From assembly GCA_017461365.1 (NCBI GenBank), contig JAFTYG010000003.1:148108-212107 (forward strand): a DNA stretch of 64,000 nucleotides, read 5' to 3'. The notes beneath the pieces were generated by a model that was given only the letters and a program-made list of their open reading frames with translations, had not been told where the DNA came from and did no database searches. This stretch comes from Clostridia bacterium (GTDB taxonomy: Bacteria > Bacillota > Clostridia > Oscillospirales > CAG-272). This document shows, one piece after another, positions 7,991 to 20,102 of the stretch. The translations under genes were made by a program, and so were the position numbers. Numbering within the stretch: position 1 is the stretch's first letter; every line of letters begins with the position of its first letter.

Positions 7991-8010
7991 ATTTATACCT
8001 CCTTAAATTA

Positions 8011-8028
8011 TTAACCGAGTTAAGTATA
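8011..8028 (-). promoter_or_regulatory. Possible -10 and small palindrome before mannosidase gene
   Basis: Minus strand TATACT (8028-8023) is followed at the expected start point by TTAAC-CGA-GTTAA (8011-8023). The five-base arms are short, so this is only a candidate AraC-family operator; no good -35 is visible, which fits an activated promoter. Confidence 0.3.
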
Positions 8029-8072
8029 GCATATTTTTGACGTTTTTTATATAGTATTTATTTTAAAAAATA

Positions 8073-8101
8073 TTGCTTTTTTTAATATATCATGCTATAA
8101 T
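8073..8101 (+). promoter_or_regulatory. SigA-type promoter of AraC regulator gene
   Basis: TTGCTT (8073-8078), 17-base spacer, TATAAT (8096-8101), 21 bases before the regulator's start codon. Confidence 0.65.
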
Positions 8102-8122
8102 TTAAAAAAAGGAGATGACGCA

Positions 8123-8914
8123 ATGATACGGTTAAGAAAGATACAGGAGCTTGACGGAGTGATCTCCGCCTCGCGTAAGCATTTTTATGGAGATGCATCT
8201 CCGCATCTTCATGAATTTTTTGAAATAGAATTCGTTATTGACGGAAGCGGCAAGTGTATAGTTGACGGTCAGGAGTATGAATTGAAGAAAAATACGCTGT
8301 TTCTTCTTTCTCCCGCCAACACACACGAAATACGAAAAGCCAATGCTGAGCTAATAAACGTAATGTTTCTGTGTGACAGCAAACAGCGTTTATTTTCACA
8401 ATTGTTGATGAGCCACGATCATTCGATCTGTTTTGAATTCGACGACAACGACGGAGCTTTTCTTTACTCGTTGCTTTCCGAGCTTGTATCGATACATAAG
8501 GATGACGTTGAATATGCGTTGATGCTTCTTGACTGCGTTTTACACAAGTTGGATCGCGTAGAGTCTTACGGTAATCAAACCGTTCTCCCCTATGTGCAAA
8601 AGGCCATACTATATGTTACCGAGAATTTCAGAAATTGTATTACGCTTTCAGATACAGCGGCGCATCTTGGACTCTCTTCTCCCTATCTATCCGACCTTTT
8701 CGTTAAGCACATAGGTGTCAATTTCAAGGTATATCTTGACAACGTGCGCTTCTCGCACGCAAAAAATCTATTGACATTTACCGATCTACAGATAAGTGAG
8801 ATATGTCGAAATTCAGGCTTTGAAGATTACGCCAATTTTTCCCGCCGCTTTAAGCACATCTGCGGTATGACTCCTACCGAATACAGAAAAAGAACAAAGG
8901 ACAGAGAGTTTTGA
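8123..8914 (+). CDS. AraC-family transcriptional regulator (cupin sensor)
   Basis: A 263-residue regulator. Residues about 15-85 form a cupin-like sugar-sensing barrel (HLHEFFEIEFVIDG, then a GxxxxVDGQEYEL turn). Residues about 165-260 hold the two AraC HTH motifs: LSDTAAHLGLSSPYLSDLF and ISEICRNSGFEDYANFSRRF, ending in the family signature GMTPTEYR. It is divergent from the GH38 gene, separated by 132 bases holding both promoters, and probably activates it on sensing a mannoside. An AAGGAGA site precedes the ATG. Its stop codon lies within a terminator shared with the copper operon. Confidence 0.9.
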   Translation: MIRLRKIQELDGVISASRKHFYGDASPHLHEFFEIEFVIDGSGKCIVDGQEYELKKNTLFLLSPANTHEIRKANAELINVMFLCDSKQRLFSQLLMSHDHSICFEFDDNDGAFLYSLLSELVSIHKDDVEYALMLLDCVLHKLDRVESYGNQTVLPYVQKAILYVTENFRNCITLSDTAAHLGLSSPYLSDLFVKHIGVNFKVYLDNVRFSHAKNLLTFTDLQISEICRNSGFEDYANFSRRFKHICGMTPTEYRKRTKDREF

Positions 8915-8929
8915 TTTCTCTGTCCTTTT
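8896..8929. terminator. Bidirectional terminator between AraC gene and copper operon
   Basis: Stem AAAGGACAGAGAG/CTCTGTCCTTTT with a nine-base loop and T-run. It overlaps the AraC stop codon and lies just beyond the copA-copZ stop. Confidence 0.8.
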
Positions 8930-8942
8930 CATTTTTACTCGA

Positions 8943-9152
8943 TCATTTAATTTCCGTTACCTTATATCCGTCAGCTTCAATAAGCGATCTAAGCGTATCG
9001 TCCGATATATCCTTGGAAAGTGTTACTACTGCAGTTCCCTTTTCGTGACTGACGTCTGCAGAAAGCACGCCATCGGTAGCCTCAAGAAGCTTTTTCACTC
9101 TTGCCTCACAATGCATACACATCATTCCGGTTACATAAATCGTCTTTTTCAT
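8943..9152 (-). CDS. copZ: CopZ-like copper chaperone, in-frame internal start within copA
   Basis: A 69-residue HMA-domain protein: beta strand, the Cu(I)-binding loop MMCMHC, then the beta-alpha-beta-beta-alpha-beta pattern ending KVTEIK. The ATG at 9152-9150 is preceded at eight bases by AAGGAGA, as good a ribosome-binding site as any in the window. It therefore probably can be made as a separate chaperone that hands Cu(I) to CopA, even though the frame is continuous with CopA. In the shifted frame that a one-A-shorter tract would create, CopA would stop at a TGA overlapping this ATG (ATGA), the normal layout of coupled copA-copZ genes. Separate production is inferred, not shown. Confidence 0.65.
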
Positions 9153-11423
9153 TTGTCTTTTCTCCTTTTTTTTTGACTGCTTTTTTAATTTTACAAAATT
9201 TAATCTAAGAGCATTTGTTACTACCAAAAAGCTGGATATACTCATTGCCGCCGCGCCGAACATCGGATCAAGCTCCCAGCCCAACAGCGGAATAAACAGC
9301 CCTGCCGCCAACGGAATTCCTATGATATTATATCCAAACGCCCAAAAAAGATTTTCATAAATATTTTTTGTGACTGCTCGGCTCAGCTTTACCGCCGACA
9401 CAACATCCGAAAGTCTGCTTTTAATGATCACAACATCAGCTGACTCTATAGCTACGTCTGTTCCGCTTCCTATGGCAACACCGACGTCAGCACGTGTAAG
9501 CGAGGGAGCGTCATTTATTCCGTCTCCCACCATACAAACTCTGCCTTCTTCTTGTAAAAGCCTTACGGTCTTTTCCTTTTCATCAGGCTTTATTTCTGCA
9601 AAAACCTCATCAATTCCCGCTTCTTTTCCTATGGCTAATGCGGTTTTTGGGTTATCGCCCGTCAGCATAACCACATGAATACCCATGTTCTTCAACTTGT
9701 TGACAGCGGCTCTGCTGTCTTCTCTTATGGTATCCGCCACTGCTATCATTCCGATAATTTTATCATCCACCACAAAATAAAGCGGTGTCTTTCCGTTTTC
9801 TGCCAACAATTCAGATTGTTTTACGTACTCATTGGACACAGTTACCTTATCCTTTATAAGGTCGAAATTTCCCGCATAAACCGTTTTCCCGTCAAGCTTT
9901 GCCTTTATACCGTTACCGGGCATATTTTCAAAGTCGGTAACGCTCGAATAAGCTATACTATTTTCCAAAGCATACTCAATTATCGCCTTAGCGAGCGGAT
10001 GCTCACTGTTATGCTCAACTGATGCCGCAACACTCAGAAGCTCGGCTTCACTGACATCGTCCGCACAAATTAAATCTGTAACGCGAGGCTTGCCTTCGGT
10101 TATCGTACCCGTTTTGTCAAGGGCTACCGTTTTAACCTTACCCATTATCTCCAAGGCGGTTGCGTTTTTAAACAATACGCCGTGCTTTGCTCCTACACCG
10201 CTTCCGACCATTATAGCCACAGGTGTAGCAAGCCCCAAAGCACACGGACAGCTTATGACAAGCACAGATATAGCTCTTGCAAGAGAAAAGCCGAAATCTC
10301 CACTGACGATCATCCATACGATCAGTGTAACTACTGCAATCGCTATCACTATCGGTACAAATACACCCGAAACCTTATCCGCAATCTTAGCAATAGGCGC
10401 CTTAGTCGCTGACGCGTCGTTCACTATCTTAATTATCTGCGACAGTGCGGTATCCTCACCTACGCGTTTTGCTTCGCATCTGAGAACTCCTGACTTATTT
10501 ATGGTAGCTGCAGAAACGGCATCACCTACAGTCTTATCAACAGGAATACTCTCTCCGGTCAGCGCAGCTTCATCAACCGAGCTTACCCCATCAAGAACAA
10601 CCCCGTCAACAGGAATACTTTCTCCTGGGCGAACGATGAATGCGTCTCCTATTCTCACATCGTCAACAGCCACAGTCATCTCTTTGCCATCTCTGACTAC
10701 AACTGCAGTCTTGGGTGCTAGCTCCATAAGCTCCTTGATGGCGTTTGTCGTTTTGCCCTTAGCCCTTGCCTCCAAGAGCTTACCAAGAGTTATCAGTGTA
10801 AGCACCATAGCCGCAGACTCAAAATAAAGCCCGTGCAGACCGCTGTGTACCTCATCCATATTGTGCGTTCCCGTCATTGAATAAAGCAGCACTGTGCTGT
10901 ATAAAAACGCCGACAGCGAGCCAATTGCCACAAGAGTGTCCATATTGGGCGAAAAATGTATAAGCCCTTTAAAACCGTTTATAAAAAAGCGTTGGTTAAC
11001 TACCATTATCATGACGGCGAGGAGCATTTGTATGAGTCCCAAGCCCACAGGATTGTCTGAAAATATCGTAGGAAGAGGTGCGCCCCACATTATGTGTCCC
11101 ATGGATATATACATCAGAACAGCTAAAAAAGCAACTGAAAATATAAATCTGTAAAGCAGTTCTTTATCCATCCGATTATCCTTGGTGCTATTATTCTTAC
11201 GTCGCTCAGCCGTCTTATTTTTTTCAGCAGATAACGATGCGCCATACCCCGCCTTTTCGACAGCGGATATAACTGCTTCGGGAGCCACGTCGCCCTCCAC
11301 GATCATCGAATTTGTCAATAAATTCACCGCACAAGAATCAACACCGTCAAGCTTTTCCACCGCGTTCTGAACGCGTGCGCTACAAGCGGCACAGCTCATT
11401 CCTGTAATATCAAATTTTGCCAT
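8943..11423 (-). CDS. copA: Copper-exporting P-type ATPase CopA fused to CopZ domain
   Basis: An 826-residue P1B-ATPase that pumps Cu(I) out of the cell. In order: N-terminal HMA domain (GMSCAAC, Cys11/Cys14), membrane helices, TGES (289-292) in the actuator, the transmembrane CPC copper site (392-394), phosphorylated DKTGT (436-440), SEHP (473-476), and the GDGIND hinge (633-638). The usual CopA body ends near residue 757. From Met758 to the stop it continues in frame as a complete 69-residue HMA domain with GMMCMHC (Cys769/Cys772), the size of a free CopZ chaperone. The junction is a nine-A tract followed by a ribosome-binding site, so the extra domain may be fused, separately initiated, or both. 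It is the second gene after csoR. Confidence 0.93.
9161..9174 (-). other. A9 tract plus Shine-Dalgarno at the CopA/CopZ junction
   Basis: On the mRNA sense strand nine consecutive A (9174-9166) run directly into GGAGA (9165-9161). Long A tracts are known sites for RNA polymerase or ribosome slippage, and an SD-like element close by is a known stimulator. Here the same bases also serve as the CopZ ribosome-binding site. Confidence 0.6.
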
Positions 11424-11436
11424 TTTTGACGCTCCT

Positions 11437-11739
11437 TTATTTCATTAGTTTCTGTAATAGCAAAACAAGTTCGTCGATTGTTTCATCTTTACCATTTCTG
11501 ATATCCTCTGCTACACAAGTATGAATGTGATTAGCAAGCAACTCGCGATTGAATGCGTTCAGCGCTGCTTGAATTGCACTTACTTGTGTTAATATATCCG
11601 TACAATAAGTATCTGTATCGAGCATTTTTTTGACACCTCTGACTTGTCCCTCGATTCGATTCAAGCGGTTTATGAGAGATTTGTATTCTTCTTCAGATCT
11701 TTGCTTTGTTTTATTAGAACAACACATAAGTTTTTCCAT
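11437..11739 (-). CDS. csoR: Copper-sensing transcriptional repressor CsoR
   Basis: A 100-residue all-helical repressor that leaves DNA on binding Cu(I). The Cys-His-Cys copper site of the family is visible: a Cys in [10 protein letters not shown], then His and Cys in [12 protein letters not shown]. The helix [16 protein letters not shown] is the family signature. I start it at the ATG at 11739, five bases after GGAGG; four extra residues from a TTG are open upstream but overlap that site. It is first in the csoR-copA-copZ operon, with two operators directly upstream, so it represses itself and the pump until copper rises. Confidence 0.93.
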
Positions 11740-11749
11740 CAACACCTCC

Positions 11750-11768
11750 AATACCCCTATGGGGTATT
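11750..11768. promoter_or_regulatory. CsoR operator 1
   Basis: Perfect palindrome AATACCCC-TAT-GGGGTATT, matching the known TACCCC/GGGGTA type of CsoR site. It covers the predicted transcription start of the operon. Confidence 0.8.
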
Positions 11769-11771
11769 GAT

Positions 11772-11800
11772 ATTATATACCTCGTGGGGGTATATGTCAA
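11772..11800 (-). promoter_or_regulatory. Consensus SigA promoter of csoR-copA-copZ
   Basis: Minus strand TTGACA (11800-11795), exactly 17 bases, TATAAT (11777-11772): both hexamers are perfect consensus. The spacer is largely occupied by CsoR operator 2. Confidence 0.85.
11775..11795. promoter_or_regulatory. CsoR operator 2, inside the promoter spacer
   Basis: ATATACC-TCGTGGG-GGTATAT, an inverted repeat with seven-base arms. It fills the spacer between -35 and -10, so repressor bound here would exclude RNA polymerase directly. Confidence 0.7.
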
Positions 11801-11920
11801 TACTTAAGCCAAAAACTTAATCAAAAATTCACAAAGAAAACTTCAAATTATTGTTTTCCTCGCATTATTGACTTTACTACAATTTGTTGTTGCATCCAAA
11901 GCAATCAGTAAAAATACCAA

Positions 11921-11953
11921 AGGACACCTACCCAATTTATGATAGGTGTCCCC
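11921..11953. terminator. Terminator after the feo operon
   Basis: Stem GGACACCTA/TAGGTGTCC with a 12-base loop and a moderately T-rich tail on the minus strand, six bases after the stop of the FeoB-associated gene. Confidence 0.65.
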
Positions 11954-11958
11954 TAAAT

Positions 11959-12120
11959 TTATTTTTTAGTTGTATGACAAGAGCAGTTCATTCCACAAGA
12001 TCCGCACGAACCTCCGCAAGAGCAAGAGCTCTTTCCCTGCTTCTTTTTCCTTATTTCGTTGGCAATAATGGCAACAACGATAGCCACTATCACAACGGTT
12101 ATTATAATTGTCAATCCCAT
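11959..12120 (-). CDS. FeoB-associated Cys-rich membrane protein
   Basis: A 53-residue protein: one N-terminal membrane helix (about residues 3-21, almost all I, V, A), a basic stretch NEIRKKKQGK, then a cytoplasmic Cys cluster with seven Cys in about sixteen residues (CSCGGSCGSCGMNCSC). This is the layout of the FeoB-associated Cys-rich family (sometimes called FeoC-like), thought to hand or sense Fe(II) at the FeoB transporter. It follows feoB by 22 bases and has a perfect GGAGGG ribosome-binding site. It is too short to be picked up by a usual length cutoff. Confidence 0.9.
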   Translation of the reverse strand: MGLTIIITVVIVAIVVAIIANEIRKKKQGKSSCSCGGSCGSCGMNCSCHTTKK

Positions 12121-12142
12121 TATTCCCTCCTGAATAATTTAA

Positions 12143-14416
12143 TTATTTTTTAGTTTTTACCTTTACGGTCATAACGTTGTCATTATACTTGTTCTTTCTG
12201 AACAGAAGATAAGCGAGACCTACAATGCAAGCAACAGCAAACACAGTACCGATGATGTTATCAACGTATCCCACGCCCGTCAGTATAGGACTATATACGG
12301 GGCTAAACCATGAGCCTATCTGGAATACGATCAAAGAAATTACATATGCAAATCCACACATATATCCAATAGCACCGAGTGTCCACTTCCAGTTGTTCAT
12401 CTCACGCTTGATAGCTCCCATTGCCGCAAAGCAAGGCGCGCAAAGCAGATTGAATATCATAAAGGAGAATGCAGCGAGCTTGCTTCCGTTGAAGAATTCC
12501 TTACCGATAAGTATTGCGTTTTCATATACACCCTCATCAAGATCGGTAAAGAGGTCAGCACCCTCTTCAAGCATATTGGACAGAGTTCCGAATACGCCGA
12601 CGACCTCTTCCTTAGCAACAAGTCCAAGAACTGTTGCAACAGCCGCCTGCCAATTGCCGAATCCAAGAGGAGCAAATATCCAAGCAAACGCGCTACCGAT
12701 ATTTTCAAGAATAGATGCACCTCCCAACTCTTCGGTGATATAGTGGAAACCTCCCTCGAAGGAAAGGCTGTTAAGCGTCCAGATAATAACGCTCGCCGCG
12801 AAAATAACAGTACCTGCGCGCTTGATAAACGACCAACCGCGTTCCCATGTAGCTCTCAGTACGTTACCTGCAACAGGCATATGGTATGCGGGAAGCTCCA
12901 TAACGAAGGGCGCGGGATCTCCAGAGAATGCTTTTGTCTTTTTCAGTATAACACCCGAAACGATAACAGCCGCTACACCAATGAAATATGCAGAAACTGC
13001 AATAAGTCCCGAGCCGCCGAACAGAGCGCCTGCGATAAGTCCTACAATAGGCATCTTAGCTCCGCAAGGAATAAAGCCTGCTGTCATAATGGTCATCTTA
13101 CGGTCACGGTCCTGTTCGATCGTTCTCGAAGCCATGATACCGGGAACACCGCATCCGCTCGATACGAGCATAGGAATGAAAGACTTACCCGAAAGTCCGA
13201 ACTTACGGAAGATACGGTCCATAATAAACGCTACACGCGCCATATAACCGCAATCCTCAAGCAAGGAGAGCAAGAGGAAGAGTATAAGCATCTGAGGAAC
13301 AAAACCAAGCACTGCTCCAACGCCGCCTACGATACCGTCCTGAATGAGCGAATAGAGCCAAGGAGCAACTCTCAAAGCGCCCTCGGAATTGATAAGAGCG
13401 AGATCAAGAAGCTCGGGAACACTCATCCAATTTGCCATAAAGGTATCCGGATATGTTTCAGCGAACGAGCCGAAGAGCGCATCGTTCATAAATACTACTG
13501 TGAAATCACCTACCGTTCCGATAGAAATGGTATAAACGAGCCACATGATAACAGCAAATATAGGAAGTGCCAACCACCTGTTGGTAACTATACGGTCAAT
13601 CTTATCCGACGTGGTAAGCTTACCTGCACTCTTTTTCTTGTAACAGCTCTTCATAAGCTGAGCAATAAATATGTAGCGCTCGTTGGTAATGATGCTCTCC
13701 GCATCATCATCCATCTCACTCTCAACGGCGGATATATCTTTCTCTATATGAGAAACAACGTCTGCCGAAAGCTTCAATTGCTCCATAACCTTATCGTCAC
13801 GCTCAAATATCTTTATCGCGTACCATCTCTGCTGTTCCTCAGGAAGATTATGCACAGCTGCTTCTTCAATGTGAGCAATTGCATGCTCAACACTGCCCGA
13901 GAAAGCGTGCATAGGAACGGTCTTTGCAGACTTAGCAGCCTCTATTGCGACATCTGCAGCTTCCTTTATGCCCGTTCCCTTCAGCGCTGATATTTCAACA
14001 ACCTTACAACCGAGAGCTCTGGAAAGCTCCGCTGTGTTAATCTTATCGCCGTTCTTATTTACAGCATCCATCATATTGATAGCAATAACCACGGGAATCC
14101 CAAGCTCAAGAAGCTGTGTGGAAAGGTACAGATTTCTCTCGAGGTTAGTACCGTCAACGATATTGAGTATCGCATCAGGACGCTCGGAAATAAGATAGTT
14201 ACGCGCTACGACCTCCTCAAGCGTGTAGGGGGAAAGCGAATAGATACCGGGAAGGTCCGTGATAATAACGTCGCTGTTTTTCTTGAGCTTACCTTCCTTC
14301 TTTTCAACTGTAACACCTGGCCAGTTACCAACATATTGGTTGGCACCTGTCAGAGCGTTAAATAATGTGGTCTTACCGCAGTTAGGGTTGCCGGCAAGTG
14401 CAATTTTTATACCCAT
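12143..14416 (-). CDS. feoB: Ferrous iron transporter FeoB
   Basis: A 757-residue Fe(II) importer. The N-terminal G domain has G1 GNPNCGKT (residues 9-16), switch GNWPGVTVEKKEG, G3 DLPGIYSLSP (from about 54) and G4 NMMD. A helical spacer with a CKV-type SALKGTG motif follows, then the membrane domain with two Gate regions containing conserved Cys (SSGCGVPGIMASRT, and FNLLCAPCFAAMGAIKREM). It is downstream of two feoA genes and has its own palindromic operator at 14437-14454. Import of Fe(II) fits an anaerobic host cell. Confidence 0.97.
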   Translation of the reverse strand: MGIKIALAGNPNCGKTTLFNALTGANQYVGNWPGVTVEKKEGKLKKNSDVIITDLPGIYSLSPYTLEEVVARNYLISERPDAILNIVDGTNLERNLYLSTQLLELGIPVVIAINMMDAVNKNGDKINTAELSRALGCKVVEISALKGTGIKEAADVAIEAAKSAKTVPMHAFSGSVEHAIAHIEEAAVHNLPEEQQRWYAIKIFERDDKVMEQLKLSADVVSHIEKDISAVESEMDDDAESIITNERYIFIAQLMKSCYKKKSAGKLTTSDKIDRIVTNRWLALPIFAVIMWLVYTISIGTVGDFTVVFMNDALFGSFAETYPDTFMANWMSVPELLDLALINSEGALRVAPWLYSLIQDGIVGGVGAVLGFVPQMLILFLLLSLLEDCGYMARVAFIMDRIFRKFGLSGKSFIPMLVSSGCGVPGIMASRTIEQDRDRKMTIMTAGFIPCGAKMPIVGLIAGALFGGSGLIAVSAYFIGVAAVIVSGVILKKTKAFSGDPAPFVMELPAYHMPVAGNVLRATWERGWSFIKRAGTVIFAASVIIWTLNSLSFEGGFHYITEELGGASILENIGSAFAWIFAPLGFGNWQAAVATVLGLVAKEEVVGVFGTLSNMLEEGADLFTDLDEGVYENAILIGKEFFNGSKLAAFSFMIFNLLCAPCFAAMGAIKREMNNWKWTLGAIGYMCGFAYVISLIVFQIGSWFSPVYSPILTGVGYVDNIIGTVFAVACIVGLAYLLFRKNKYNDNVMTVKVKTKK

Positions 14417-14436
14417 TATTAGATCCTCTCTTTCGT

Positions 14437-14454
14437 AGTTAGCATCTGCTAACT
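14437..14454. promoter_or_regulatory. Iron-regulator operator before feoB
   Basis: Perfect inverted repeat AGTTAGC-ATCT-GCTAACT, 20 bases before the feoB start. The same GTTAGC-N4-GCTAAC core occurs before the feoA pair. A TTGACA (14463-14458) abuts it on the minus strand but no matching -10 is visible. Assigned to the adjacent DtxR-type regulator by location and half-site resemblance to GGTTAG (inference). Confidence 0.7.
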
Positions 14455-14499
14455 AAATGTCAAAAATTTTTTAGGGGATATTCCCCCTTGAAAATTATT

Positions 14500-14721
14500 T
14501 TATTCTACCTCAACCATTTCGGCATCTGCCTTGCGCAAGCTGAGCTCATAACCGCGTACGGTTACTTCAACGGGATCACCGAGAGGCGCAACCTTACGAA
14601 CGTATATCTCGACGCCTTTTGTAATGCCCATATCCATAATTCTGCGCTTTACCGCGCCTTCGCCATGGAGCTTTACGACCTTAACAGTCTCACCGATCTT
14701 AACATCTTTCAATGTTTTCAT
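14500..14721 (-). CDS. feoA: FeoA, SH3-like cytoplasmic partner of FeoB (second copy)
   Basis: A 73-residue SH3-fold protein with the FeoA pattern: VKIGETVKVVKLHGEGAVKRR, MDMGITKGVEIYVRKVAPLGDPVEV, ending in RGYELSLRKADAE. It supports FeoB GTPase-driven Fe(II) uptake. It starts after an AGGAGGG site and lies between the other feoA (45 bases upstream) and feoB (83 bases downstream). Two feoA genes before one feoB is a common arrangement in Clostridia. Confidence 0.92.
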   Translation of the reverse strand: MKTLKDVKIGETVKVVKLHGEGAVKRRIMDMGITKGVEIYVRKVAPLGDPVEVTVRGYELSLRKADAEMVEVE

Positions 14722-14766
14722 GCTTGTTCCCTCCTTACAGTCTCAATGTATAATTTATTTAAAAAA

Positions 14767-14982
14767 TTATCCAACCATTATCTTTTGCGCCATTTCCTTG
14801 CTTATGGCTATACGCGCATCTTTAACGTTTACGATGATGTTGCCACCGAGTGCGTTTATAACAGTTACGGTAGAGCCTACAACAAATCCGAGATTTTCCA
14901 AATGCTGCTTTACCTCAGGCTTTCCGCCGATCTTCTTTATAATATGTTCCTCACCGATCGAGGCGAGCATTAACGGCATCAT
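14767..14982 (-). CDS. feoA: FeoA, SH3-like cytoplasmic partner of FeoB (first copy)
   Basis: A 71-residue FeoA. It differs from its neighbour: KIGGKPEVKQHLENLGFVVGSTVTVINALGGNIIVNVKDARIAI, a form that includes a short helical insert (about residues 17-28). The start is set at the ATG at 14982 (followed at once by a second ATG), eight bases after GAGGG. It is the first gene of the feo operon, under the perfect promoter at 15036-15064 and its palindrome. Confidence 0.9.
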   Translation of the reverse strand: MMPLMLASIGEEHIIKKIGGKPEVKQHLENLGFVVGSTVTVINALGGNIIVNVKDARIAISKEMAQKIMVG

Positions 14983-15012
14983 AACAAGCACCCTCTTTTA
15001 AATATATAATCG

Positions 15013-15177: not shown

Positions 15178-15206
15178 TTGACAAATCCGCGATTATGTGG
15201 TATAAT
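15178..15206 (+). promoter_or_regulatory. Consensus SigA promoter of dtxR-type gene
   Basis: TTGACA (15178-15183), exactly 17 bases, TATAAT (15201-15206), 28 bases before the start codon. No GTTAGC palindrome overlaps it, so the regulator itself looks constitutive. Confidence 0.85.
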
Positions 15207-15234
15207 GTACAAAATCTTTAAGGAGGTGATCCAG

Positions 15235-15594
15235 ATGGCTTTACAGGAATCGGGGGAAATGTATCTTGAGTCTATATATATGCTTTCAAAAGAAAAAAGT
15301 GACGTACACGCAGTGGACGTAAGTGAATATCTCGGATACACAAAGCCCTCTGTCAGCCGAGCTATGGGAATCCTCAAAAACGGCGGATATATTATCGTCG
15401 ACAGAGACGGTCATATCAGACTAACGGATGAGGGGCGCAAAGTTGCCGAGGCTATGTATGAGCGGCACACCTTGCTTACAAAATTTTTGATAAGCATTGG
15501 AGTTGATGAAGAAACCGCTACCGAGGACGCTTGCAAGATAGAGCACGTCATCAGCGAGAAGTCGTTTGAAGCGATGAAAAAGCATATCAAATAA
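15235..15594 (+). CDS. Short DtxR/MntR-family metalloregulator, iron-type metal site
   Basis: A 119-residue cytoplasmic repressor: winged HTH (residues about 8-70, SEYLGYTKPSVSRAMGILKNGG) and a short dimerisation domain; it lacks the SH3-like third domain and is shorter than MntR (about 142). Aligned by eye, the metal residues are Met9, His78, Cys100, Glu103 and His104, which correspond to DtxR Met10, His79, Cys102, Glu105 and His106, not to the Asp8/Glu99 of MntR. This points to Fe(II) sensing. The start at 15235 follows AAGGAGGTGATCC, a full anti-16S match. It is divergent from feoA and probably binds the two GTTAGC palindromes. Confidence 0.88.
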   Translation: MALQESGEMYLESIYMLSKEKSDVHAVDVSEYLGYTKPSVSRAMGILKNGGYIIVDRDGHIRLTDEGRKVAEAMYERHTLLTKFLISIGVDEETATEDACKIEHVISEKSFEAMKKHIK

Positions 15595-15800: not shown

Positions 15801-18800
15801 TTATAAGCTGATAACAGCCGTTCTGGTCTTAAGTGCTTGAACGTCTCCGTTCTCCATCACCTTTTTAGGTGTGATCTTAAGAGATACGGTAGCTCCCTCC
15901 GGAATATCCGTAAGAACAAATCCATAAAGATATTCACCGCCAAGCTCGTATGCCGTGACGCTCTTGCCTGCCGCATAAACAGATGTAAATACTGTGTTTT
16001 GAGGCGCAATAGCTATCTTTTTCCATTCGCTATCTGCGGGAGAGTCCGCATCAGCGTCTCCTATATACACATAAACATCCATTTCGAGACGTGACAACTC
16101 AAGGCTGTTGAGCGTACCGAGAATACGTATCCTGTGTTTTCCGTTTGTATCCGCAGCCTCAGTTTTTTGCAAATATATCTTGTTTAGAATATTATTTGCG
16201 ATTCCTGCTGGAATTATTTCGTAGGTTTCATCAAGATACCAATCAGAGCCTTCTGCTGTTGGCATATCATCCTTTGTCAGAGTCTTATATATAGGAGTGT
16301 CCTTTGTATCCGTACCAGAAACAGCATCAACGCAAGTCGTAACTGTGGGAACAGTGGTTTCTATTGCAGTCCATATCTCTGTCGATGTACCAAGAGCGTG
16401 GTTTGATACCGCCGCACCACGATTAAGACAGTTTGTCATAGTCACACCCGCTGCTGTTGAAGTTACTTCACCTATAAACGTACCTGCATTTATTTCTGTC
16501 TTACCTGTTGTGTTAACAACATTGCCCTTTACAGTTCCTTCATAGATTACATTATTAAAGTTCACAGAGAAATCCCCTGTACCACAGCTTCCAAAAACAC
16601 CTGCAACACGATGGGTATAATCATACTCATAGGTGTTGTTAAAGGTCACATCAACATCTACTATTACATTTTCAATTGTCAATGTAGATGCAGCTGTTGT
16701 CTTATGGGTGGAATTACCAGAAGTAGTAAAGCATCCAACAAGACCTACAGCGTTTGTTTGACCGTATTTACCGTTATAATTCAATACAACATTGCCTTCC
16801 AACGTCAAGTTCTTGATCACAAGATCGGCATTGCTCTTGGTAGGCGTCATATTTCTGATAAAGCCTGCGTGCTTTGTTTTGTTGGGTGCATATGTTGTAT
16901 GAGTTTGGTTGAAGCCTGTTATCTTATATCCGTGACCGTCAATATTGCCTGAAAATTCCGCAAAGCCGGGGAAGTTAACTCCGCCAAGATCTATATCCGC
17001 AGTTAAATGGAATGTCTTTCCGGCAGTCACAGCCGAAGGAGCAGTGGTGCTTTCAGACTTATATGTTCCGTTACCTGCAATACAAGCCTCTACATGAGTC
17101 TTAACTGTATCGAGAGTTGCATCCGATCCGGCAACTGTCAAGCCCCAAAGTCCCCAAAGGTCATCGGCATCGGAAATATACAGATCTGTTGCCTTTGCAT
17201 CATACCAAGATATATCCGCTACTACATCTGGAGCTTTATCACTTCCGATCAATACCATTGTCGCTTCTTTTCCTTCTCTTGAAGAGATCGTAGAAACAGG
17301 GATCACACTTTCAGCTACGATATCGTCAATATAGAATGTTCTATCGGCACTCGAGGGGGTACAAGCCATTTGTATAGCCAGTGTTGATACCTGCTGGCTT
17401 ACCATCGTCTCGTCAATAGTTACATATACGGTCTGATCCACCCACTCGTCAGCCTCCACCACAACCGTGGAAGATTTATAGTAGCTTGTACTGTAAGATG
17501 ATTCAGGAGTGGAAGAATATGCACTCATCCAACCAATGGATACGGTTCCGTTGATATTTGCTTTAAGGCGGAAGGAGACCTTAAAGGTACGTCCGATATC
17601 CTCAGCGGTCAACGCACGGTCTGCAAGAATATTTAAGAACTTTATTCTATCCGAATTTTGATCTGCCTTTACAAATGCGACCTTGTTGCTTATACCGTTC
17701 TCATTAAGTGTAGTAACACCTGTTGCAACCGTAGTACCGCCCGTACGGTAAAAACCTACGCTGGAAAATCCGTTATTTTTACTTTCGTTAACTCTGAGGG
17801 GATTTGTATATTCTTTATGTTCGAGAGAGAAATCTTCTATTTTTTCAAAATCGATCGAGTAGTCATAATAATCACTTACCTTCGCTTTAATAGCCAATGT
17901 TACCTTTTTAGCCTTGATGACATTCAAAAGCTTGGATATATCAAGATCATTTCCGCCTTCAGAAAGCTCGAAGTCACCCAAATAGACAGCTCCGCCAAGG
18001 TTGGGCATATTGGAGTAGCAAAGAGTAACTTCATTTACTGTATATCCGTCAAGCGCATATATCTCTACTGTTTGTATTGTATCATTATTGGTAACTAAGC
18101 GGAAATATTTTGAGTTTATTAAGTCAGCAGTTTCGAATGTAGCGAAAAGAATGCATTCTTTAGCACTTGCTCCGCTTATCTTCAGCTCTTCCGCGCTACC
18201 AAATACACGATCAGGCTCGGCAGAAGAAACGTATGCATCGGCAACAGGACGAATGGATACGCCAAGCTCTGTACTGAATGTATGAAGTATAGATGCTGAT
18301 ATATCATTTCCGTCTGCATCCTTCAAAGCGGCCTTGGTCTTTATCGTATATGTTTTTGCTGCATCAAATCCATTATGTACGAATACAAAACGTGAATTGA
18401 CCTCGCTGGCTATCCATTCGCCGCTGAGCTCGTTACCGTTGCTATCAACAACCACAAGACCTTCGTTCACGCTGTTTACATCCATTTCACAAAGGAATTT
18501 AACATCGGGATACGCGTTAACCGAAATCAATGCGTCACCGCCTGCGGGAGATACCCAAACTACCTCCGAAGTCTCCTCATTTGGCTTCAAATAATAGTCA
18601 AAGAACTGGAACATAGCGTTATAACGGTCGTAGTCAAGCTCATCATCATAACCCACAGGGTAGTCGTGACCCTTGTCATCCATATCGATGGGAAGATATA
18701 TCTCGGTTGCTACATCAGCAAAGAACTGCTGAACGCCGTCCCACTCAGCATACATACCGTATTGGTCGTTCGCTCCGCAAGACAAAAGCATAGGAACAAA

Positions 18801-20102
18801 TTCCCTACCCTCGAAGTAGCCGTCAACGCCTTCGTAGAACCAACGTGTTCCGTCGCCAGCCGCAGAATAAGAAACAGTTACTTCACTGCTTATCTCGGTT
18901 CCGTCATCATATGTCATATAAGGCTGTACAACATTTTCCCCGCCTTCAAAAAGCGTACCGTCAGGATCGGCAGAATAATTCTGATACTCGGGCATTGTTA
19001 CATTGTTCTTTACACCAAGTATAGCAGGATAAGGCGAACCCTTGGAAATTCCCGCAACGCCTATATATTCTTGACTGTATCCAAGCTCATCTGCAAAATA
19101 ACGAATACAACGAATGGAAGCTCTTGCCGCCTTTGCTCCGTTTTCTTTGTGAAGCTTATAGGGGTCAAAGTATCCAAAGGTCTTCTGCATAAGTGTAAAT
19201 GTATGTTCAACGTTAACTACTGTATATCCGTTGAAAGCAAAACCAACAAAGTGACATCTCTCGTGATCGCTTATATCACAGGTATTACGGTGTCTGTCAG
19301 ATTGAGTTGCCTCAAAGGTATAAACAGGTGTCTCCCTTGTAGGCTGAGAAGGATAGATTATATCGAGATAGAATTTTGTGTCAAGCGGATCTCCGTAATA
19401 ATCGGTACAATCCTCAAAGGTATTCGCCGTGGTAGCAGTTGTTCCATCATACAATGTCTTTTTGCCTGCTACATAATTATTCCATACAGAAAGAACATAA
19501 TCGAGTGTTCCGAGTGATGCATGAACCGCAGTATCAAAATATTCCACATCCCTCTTCAAGCGGTAGCCCGCTGGAAGAAAATATCCATAATATTTACGAA
19601 TAGAAATACCTGTACCCGAAAAAGGCGTTTGATCTATCATTACATATTGACGTAATGTAGCCAAGCTATGCTCAATATCGGGAGGAACTGCTTTTTCATT
19701 ATTCAAGTAGTCAACCGTAACAACAACATAGCCCTGTGAAATATAGTCGGAAAGTATGCTGACATCGCTTTCCTGTCCGATACGTTCACCGTTCCAGTTT
19801 ATTACATAAAAAATTACATCTCGCTTCTTTAGCTGATATATGTTATAGTTCTTTGTATCATACATAATAGAAGCATCGGGATCATTATAGATAGCTAAAT
19901 GTACAGGGATACCGATGTATCCGTCGGTGGTTTTGACCTCTGTCTTTACAAGATGATCTTTCAGCTCTTCGTAAACAAACACAGCGTCTGTTTCCTCCGT
20001 AGTAGCAAAAATTTTAATAGGTAAGCAAGGGATCAGCATAAAAACTGTCAGTGTTAGCGCTAAAAGTCTAAACAGCGCAAGTCGTTTTTCTTTTTTTACC
20101 AT
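15801..20102 (-). CDS. Large secreted multidomain protein with N-terminal alpha/beta-hydrolase (esterase-like)
   Basis: A 1433-residue exported protein. Residues 1-33 are a signal peptide (KKEKR, hydrophobic core, cut near IFA). About 40-510 is an alpha/beta-hydrolase with nucleophile Ser353 in GISKG, Asp446 in CGANDQ and His479 in DKGHD, an intact Ser-Asp-His set typical of acetylxylan-esterase or depolymerase-like enzymes. About 520-620 is a Big/Ig-like strand-rich linker; about 620-760 a DNRLRE/CBM-like jelly roll; about 770-930 a further carbohydrate-binding-like domain ending FYIDDIVAES; about 960-1260 a GLUG-type repeat region (IDGHGYKITGFN, with LTADIDLGG). The C-terminal 130 residues are beta-rich. 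No dockerin or LPxTG anchor is seen. The domain borders are approximate. Confidence 0.75.
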   Translation of the reverse strand: MVKKEKRLALFRLLALTLTVFMLIPCLPIKIFATTEETDAVFVYEELKDHLVKTEVKTTDGYIGIPVHLAIYNDPDASIMYDTKNYNIYQLKKRDVIFYVINWNGERIGQESDVSILSDYISQGYVVVTVDYLNNEKAVPPDIEHSLATLRQYVMIDQTPFSGTGISIRKYYGYFLPAGYRLKRDVEYFDTAVHASLGTLDYVLSVWNNYVAGKKTLYDGTTATTANTFEDCTDYYGDPLDTKFYLDIIYPSQPTRETPVYTFEATQSDRHRNTCDISDHERCHFVGFAFNGYTVVNVEHTFTLMQKTFGYFDPYKLHKENGAKAARASIRCIRYFADELGYSQEYIGVAGISKGSPYPAILGVKNNVTMPEYQNYSADPDGTLFEGGENVVQPYMTYDDGTEISSEVTVSYSAAGDGTRWFYEGVDGYFEGREFVPMLLSCGANDQYGMYAEWDGVQQFFADVATEIYLPIDMDDKGHDYPVGYDDELDYDRYNAMFQFFDYYLKPNEETSEVVWVSPAGGDALISVNAYPDVKFLCEMDVNSVNEGLVVVDSNGNELSGEWIASEVNSRFVFVHNGFDAAKTYTIKTKAALKDADGNDISASILHTFSTELGVSIRPVADAYVSSAEPDRVFGSAEELKISGASAKECILFATFETADLINSKYFRLVTNNDTIQTVEIYALDGYTVNEVTLCYSNMPNLGGAVYLGDFELSEGGNDLDISKLLNVIKAKKVTLAIKAKVSDYYDYSIDFEKIEDFSLEHKEYTNPLRVNESKNNGFSSVGFYRTGGTTVATGVTTLNENGISNKVAFVKADQNSDRIKFLNILADRALTAEDIGRTFKVSFRLKANINGTVSIGWMSAYSSTPESSYSTSYYKSSTVVVEADEWVDQTVYVTIDETMVSQQVSTLAIQMACTPSSADRTFYIDDIVAESVIPVSTISSREGKEATMVLIGSDKAPDVVADISWYDAKATDLYISDADDLWGLWGLTVAGSDATLDTVKTHVEACIAGNGTYKSESTTAPSAVTAGKTFHLTADIDLGGVNFPGFAEFSGNIDGHGYKITGFNQTHTTYAPNKTKHAGFIRNMTPTKSNADLVIKNLTLEGNVVLNYNGKYGQTNAVGLVGCFTTSGNSTHKTTAASTLTIENVIVDVDVTFNNTYEYDYTHRVAGVFGSCGTGDFSVNFNNVIYEGTVKGNVVNTTGKTEINAGTFIGEVTSTAAGVTMTNCLNRGAAVSNHALGTSTEIWTAIETTVPTVTTCVDAVSGTDTKDTPIYKTLTKDDMPTAEGSDWYLDETYEIIPAGIANNILNKIYLQKTEAADTNGKHRIRILGTLNSLELSRLEMDVYVYIGDADADSPADSEWKKIAIAPQNTVFTSVYAAGKSVTAYELGGEYLYGFVLTDIPEGATVSLKITPKKVMENGDVQALKTRTAVISL

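Follow-up and report, generated by a model that had tools for sequence, protein, structure and literature searches.

How many proteins are made from a copA gene whose reading frame does not stop, but runs on into a complete copZ? The question is raised by an ORF on the minus strand (8943..11423) of the window, by which we mean the whole 64-kb stretch of DNA that was analysed. Read from the sequence and its translation, it encodes 826 amino acids without an internal stop, and is composed, from N- to C-terminus, of an HMA domain with a CAAC motif, the core of a Cu-ATPase, a linker of 15 residues, and a second HMA domain with a CMHC motif. In between, the copA frame passes through a run of nine A, the hexamer AAGGAG and an ATG, after which it continues into a CopZ-like domain of 69 residues. 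A preliminary description of this DNA had already proposed such an in-frame run-on into a complete HMA domain, and both the ORF and the score of its last 69 residues on PF00403 (55.2 bits, where the cut-off is 24.8) bear this out.

The pump part can be assigned, by a curated model and by motifs, to the P1B-1 copper-exporting ATPases (CopA). On TIGR01511, copper-translocating P-type ATPase, the protein scores 585.5 bits against a cut-off of 397, Pfam recognizes an E1-E2 ATPase, a hydrolase and two HMA stretches, and the CPC, DKTGT and GDGxND motifs are present and invariant across 41 aligned fused sequences. On NF007952, the equivalog model for E. coli CopA, it falls short of the cut-off (653 of 1316). 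That the pump transports Cu+ is suggested by its family and by the CsoR-like gene upstream. As for the C-terminal domain (8943..9152, minus strand, if translated from the internal ATG), its matches in the PDB include the CopZ entries 6ff2, 1k0v and 2qif, and its GMMCMHC motif fits what is expected of CopZ, an HMA domain of about 70 residues with MxCxxC. On its own it stays below the named-CopZ cut-offs of NCBIfam (48.9 of 85 for NF047957, 41.9 of 95 for NF033794, and 46.4 of 91 for NF033795), as well as that of TIGR00003 (40.7 of 62), and the full-length protein exceeds the NF047957 cut-off (101.3) just by adding up its two domains. We therefore call the 69-residue domain CopZ-like; it does fit the HMA family. 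Among 218 non-redundant fused genes, CxHC is found in 203 of the C-terminal domains and CAAC in 205 of the N-terminal ones, while 16 of 20 separate CopZ proteins carry CxHC as well. The genome from which the window derives (95.24% complete) has two places that encode HMA domains, both within this copA-copZ gene.

The junction reads exactly as it had been described: nine A at 9174-9166 (T9 on the plus strand), GGAGA at 9165-9161, eight bases, and an ATG at 9152-9150. The last two A of the tract are part of a Shine-Dalgarno sequence, AAGGAG (9162..9167, minus strand), which forms the codons of Lys753 and Glu754; its pairing energy to the anti-Shine-Dalgarno, calculated in locus L116, which is a copy of the gene in the window, is -8.9 kcal/mol. 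The ATG is Met758. The CopA body had been thought to end near residue 757, but in the alignment of 41 fused proteins the conserved body ends at about residue 742 (NALRLN), and residues 743-757 (9153..9197) form a variable linker, within which the putative ribosome-binding site is encoded. With eight A instead of nine, the copA frame would indeed end at a TGA that overlaps the internal ATG. Such an overlap is by itself uninformative: among the 206 fused genes with the site, 84 have a TGA at +1 of the internal start, without such A tracts, because the next codon often starts with A (45%). The tract is the sole run of A or T of at least nine in the window. When the junction is aligned in relatives for tract length and ATGA overlap, as had been suggested, the tract is absent from most of them; a run of at least eight A within the 45 nt before the start is seen in just three of the 218 fused genes. 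What the relatives have in common is the Shine-Dalgarno sequence and the ATG, not the A9.

Our first set of homologues consisted of the top 80 among 586 confirmed relatives. Every one of them was fused in frame, which is no estimate of prevalence, because this set favours full-length matches and one search pattern lay inside the CopZ domain. A search of the genus (30 genomes, 23 of which matched at E ≤ 1e-100) added 26 new loci, 17 of them scored as fused by our first script. For a fairer sample, the CopA body alone was used as query, giving matches in 134 of 148 genomes of the family and 217 of 243 of the class. From the matches listed we took roughly every second one not yet fetched, 60 from the own family and 40 from the class, where some partial or contig-end matches were skipped and those of the class were among the stronger ones listed. 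These 100 regions comprise 69 fused genes, 20 with a separate CopZ downstream (one of which, L214, is weak at 22 bits), 10 without and one that is cut off. Of the 60 regions from the family, 42 are fused. Taken together, the 263 loci analysed comprise 228 fused genes, 20 loci with a separate copZ downstream, 14 without any and one that is cut off. Within the class, fused genes with the internal site come from genomes under no fewer than 28 family labels, and the CopA bodies of the relatives are mostly 41-65% identical to that of the window. The nearest relative within the genus (65% identical) is fused, and on a tree of 254 rows the distribution of fused and unfused genes takes 10 changes.

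How well, then, is the internal site conserved? A start codon located from -36 to +9 of the domain and preceded by a Shine-Dalgarno sequence of -5 kcal/mol or better is present in 206 of the 218 fused genes (201 ATG, four GTG and one TTG), compared to 813 of 2616 random windows of the CopA body that were subjected to the identical best-of-window procedure. At -8 kcal/mol or better, these numbers are 185 of 218 and 207 of 2616. An ATG no more than 9 nt from where the domain starts is found in 188 of the 218 genes, in 183 of them with -5 and in 164 with -8 kcal/mol or better, whereas internal ATGs of the same genes, matched for an AT-rich upstream composition, reach these values in 30 and in none of 370 cases, respectively. 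Spacing is equally regular: in 158 of the 206 sites, the GGA core begins exactly 13 nt upstream of the start. With a median of -9.0 kcal/mol, compared to -10.25 for copA's own start (212 measured), the internal site is almost as strong as that of copA itself.

Codon choice points in the same direction. Lys-Glu pairs just before the domain are spelled AAGGAG in 101 of 129 cases, without selection on pairing energy, in comparison with 195 of 786 such pairs in the CopA body, none of 23 in the upstream linker and eight of 58 in the CopZ domain, as counted in the 206 loci with the site. Synonymous shuffling of the eight codons before the nearest ATG (n = 188), following each gene's own codon usage, leads one to expect -8 kcal/mol or better in 35%, where 87% is observed, and 170 of the 188 genes do better than expected. 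The first of our site tests included only loci already at -5 kcal/mol or better; rerun without this filter, they gave slightly weaker, similar values. At the protein level, Met758 is kept in 38 of the 41 aligned fused proteins, within a linker that is otherwise variable. Within the region, the mRNA folds least around the ATG (on average -1.0 to -1.6 kcal/mol per 40 nt, most flanking windows being at about -6 to -9), a minimum that coincides with a drop in GC content, as the linker is AT-rich. These comparisons strongly support that neither protein sequence nor base composition comes near to accounting for how well the internal Shine-Dalgarno sequence and start are conserved, and indicate that the junction site is selected as a nucleotide sequence.

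The same pattern is seen in genes that were obtained after it had been defined. Among the matches listed by a search of the phylum with a CopZ profile (149 genomes, 42 matching at E ≤ 1e-20), 16 lie in frames of at least 600 residues, and four of these were already in our set. The other 12 are all fused and all have an ATG with a Shine-Dalgarno sequence of -5.9 to -14.3 kcal/mol, 11 of them outside the class of the window. Furthermore, a like Shine-Dalgarno sequence and start precede all 20 of the separate copZ genes. In a more distant group (L191, L209, L213 and L226), the fused domains begin with M(L)FGK after the Shine-Dalgarno sequence, and separate CopZ proteins of the same family (L208, L210, L216 and L228) begin with MGLFGK or similar to MLFGK, so that the internal Met is found where the standalone gene has its start codon.

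What is found, as far as nucleotide and protein sequences can tell, is a conserved in-frame internal start with its Shine-Dalgarno sequence ahead of a self-standing C-terminal domain. Our preferred reading, to which we assign a probability of roughly 85%, is that a single fused gene makes free CopZ by internal initiation, besides the CopA-CopZ fusion. One copper-induced gene would thereby give rise to two proteins. Ribosomes arriving from the copA start would produce a Cu+ pump with a CopZ-type chaperone domain attached to its C-terminus by a short and disordered-looking linker. Other ribosomes would bind the Shine-Dalgarno sequence that the codons of this linker contain (as a rule AAG GAG, for Lys-Glu) and initiate at the in-frame ATG about 9 nt downstream, yielding a free CopZ of about 69 residues that may collect Cu+ in the cytosol and pass it on to the pump, with the ratio of tethered to free chaperone fixed by one mRNA. 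Initiation in vivo, accumulation of free CopZ, carriage of Cu+ by both forms and the ratio between them are steps that we infer. That in much of the phylum copA is such a dual-product gene, with a ribosome-binding site hidden in the linker, as a solution independent of frameshifting in E. coli, is in our opinion quite probable, if a little less so. Of the three options that the preliminary description had left, a true fusion that still permits initiation of CopZ is the one upheld by the conserved Shine-Dalgarno sequence and start, whereas a slippage switch on the poly-A tract finds no support in the comparison with relatives.

Other explanations for the junction must however be taken into account. 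The fusion could be a plain one, with full-length CopA-CopZ as its only product and the Shine-Dalgarno sequence and ATG as relics of a once separate copZ; the 20 loci in which a separate copZ has the same leader, and the 12 of 218 fused genes that lack the site, would fit such a history. A relic, however, would decay at synonymous sites, whereas AAGGAG is kept between CopA bodies of such limited identity, and the 12 losers need 12 changes on the 254-row tree, meaning that the site was lost singly, scattered over the tips; we consider a plain fusion unlikely. Shine-Dalgarno-like codons can also influence elongation, and the AAGGAG could slow down translating ribosomes, for instance to allow the membrane part to fold, in which case the ATG would be incidental. 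Its location after the last membrane segment would suit such a role. Against it, ATG and motif are conserved to the same degree, spacing is fixed, and separate copZ genes carry the same leader, which makes a mere pause very improbable.

The two remaining explanations revolve around the A tract itself. Slippage on such runs, by either RNA polymerase or ribosome, is known in principle, and could here generate eight-A products, in which CopA stops at the ATGA, next to nine-A products; the uniqueness of the tract within the window, and the presence of A AAA AAG in frame, speak for the idea in this gene. Relatives give it hardly any credence, given the scarcity of long A runs among them and the ATGA in so many genes without one. 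Moreover, no sign of E. coli-type frameshifting was found at the C-terminal junction, where in-frame A_AAA_AAR heptamers occur in 16 of 206 genes, against 13.7 expected from codon usage, and where the predicted RNA of the window has no apparent slippage stimulator, its folding being equalled or surpassed by 195 of 200 shuffles (z +1.72). With the tract unconserved, heptamers not enriched and folding weak, we rejected both A9 slippage and -1/+1 frameshifting as a general mechanism; some slippage in this one genome is at most a slim possibility. Alternatively, the ninth A could be an error of sequencing or assembly, so that the true tract is A8 and copA and copZ are separate, coupled genes in this genome. 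Homopolymers are a concern in a metagenome-type assembly such as this one (92 contigs, contamination 5.77), and unfused relatives do exist. Yet the nearest relative within the genus and 42 of the 60 regions sampled from the family are fused, which renders an indel rather improbable; it would in any event leave the conserved pattern unaffected, and bear only on whether the fused product exists in this particular genome, as the start of CopZ would be retained.

Returning to the genes from which the internal start is missing, the 12 that lack it by our metric may be joined by two more, L141 and L258, whose only qualifying start is an unconvincing GTG or TTG. We compared the presence of a standalone CopZ in 46 genomes, using a profile of the CopZ domain, because PF00403 alone is too broad to separate standalone CopZ from other HMA proteins. 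At a threshold of 63 bits, chosen after the scores were known, a standalone CopZ is present in seven of the 12 losers and four of the 34 others (Fisher p 0.003). Placing L141 and L258 among the losers changes these counts to nine of 14 and two of 32. With the threshold lowered to 45 bits, the original contrast shrinks to 10 of 12 against 17 of 34 (p 0.086). Independent pairs on the tree go in the expected direction two to four times at 63 bits, with zero to one reversals, too few for significance, and show no trend at 45 bits. That loss of the site goes together with a separate CopZ is thus hinted at in a way that depends on the threshold and is not significant in independent pairs; another CopZ-like gene is also present in some genomes whose fused gene has the site. 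A second kind of standalone HMA protein, of about 53-58 bits and in frames of about 93-155 codons, recurs in many of these genomes, among them G126, G076, G122, G160, G084, G270 and G395. In L257 (G349), the CopA frame has one N-terminal and two C-terminal HMA domains, and no start at the junction by our metric.

The comparison with E. coli is instructive. E. coli copA yields CopA(Z) by programmed -1 frameshifting (Meydan 2017 and Drees 2017, as cited in PMC7558416 and PMC10187127), with translation truncated after the N-terminal metal-binding domain to give a product of 70 amino acids (PMC5009743), and with a slippery sequence, a pseudoknot and the nascent chain as its elements (PMC7558416). 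Both systems would obtain a pump and a CopZ-type chaperone of about 70 residues from one copA gene, in our case as proposed from sequence. They differ in that here the chaperone is the C-terminal domain, that it would arise by in-frame internal initiation, and that there is no conserved slippery site. The suggestion of the preliminary description that this is a different solution to the same need can be kept, with the amendment that the device is probably internal initiation and not a poly-A site. Internal starts in the same frame that give a C-terminal domain besides the full-length protein are described for RpnL/RpnS and Cas10d/Cas11d (PMC10327210). There, expression of RpnS and Cas11d has been demonstrated, whereas the small product of copA-copZ is a prediction from sequence and, unlike these, would be a metal chaperone for the large one. 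The csoR/copY-copA-copZ operons of Firmicutes share the three functions with our locus, as well as the leader before copZ (20 loci), but have a stop codon between copA and copZ, which makes these two cistrons. In Archaeoglobus fulgidus, too, the Cu+ ATPase CopA bears a C-terminal HMA domain (PDB 3fry and 3j09), though it scores only 23.9 bits to the 69-residue domain. The same organism has a separate, unusual CopZ, according to PMC7558416.

Our searches of an open-access library turned up no account of CopZ being initiated internally in copA; a dual-product copA would be overlooked because annotation sees one gene. If our reading is correct, bacteria have at least two unrelated routes to obtain pump and chaperone from a single copA gene, and many Clostridia genomes that seemingly have no copZ may in fact make CopZ. 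It would also provide a large natural set of conserved internal starts, losses included, in which the upkeep and tuning of in-frame initiation can be studied, and the question why tethered and free chaperone are both kept would become directly testable in culturable commensals, carriers such as Anaerostipes butyraticus (L067) and [Clostridium] asparagiforme (L069) being among them.

The surroundings of the gene are those of a copper operon. Just upstream of copA, on the same strand, lies a gene for a CsoR/RicR-like metal-sensing repressor (11437..11739; PF02583, 109 bits), the ORF of which was listed from a TTG at 11751, with an ATG at 11739. Its best NCBIfam match is RicR, which at 76.8 bits stays below the cut-off of 175. 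It is preceded by a perfect sigma-70-type consensus promoter, TTGACA-17-TATAAT (11772..11800, minus strand; 12 of 12 positions), in a scan of 8850-11900 that gave five promoter-like sites where shuffling leads one to expect 5.7. In the same scan nothing supports a promoter of copZ's own, the nearest upstream candidate on the minus strand being a 9/12 match that ends at 9529. Between the hexamers of the csoR-like promoter and just after them (11749-11800) are GC-box palindromes of the ATACCCC...GGGGTAT type, which we take to resemble CsoR operators. A terminator-like stem-loop of 13 pairs is predicted just after the CopZ stop (8896..8928), and no tandem repeats were found around the locus, from 8000 to 15000. 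Judged by eye from translations, the copper operon is adjoined by a FeoB-like gene (12143-14416), two small FeoA-like proteins (14500-14721 and 14767-14991) and, on the plus strand, a DtxR-like regulator (15178-15594). Beyond these is an ORF of 1433 residues (15801-20102), the start of which, by eye, looks like that of an exported, hydrolase-like protein.
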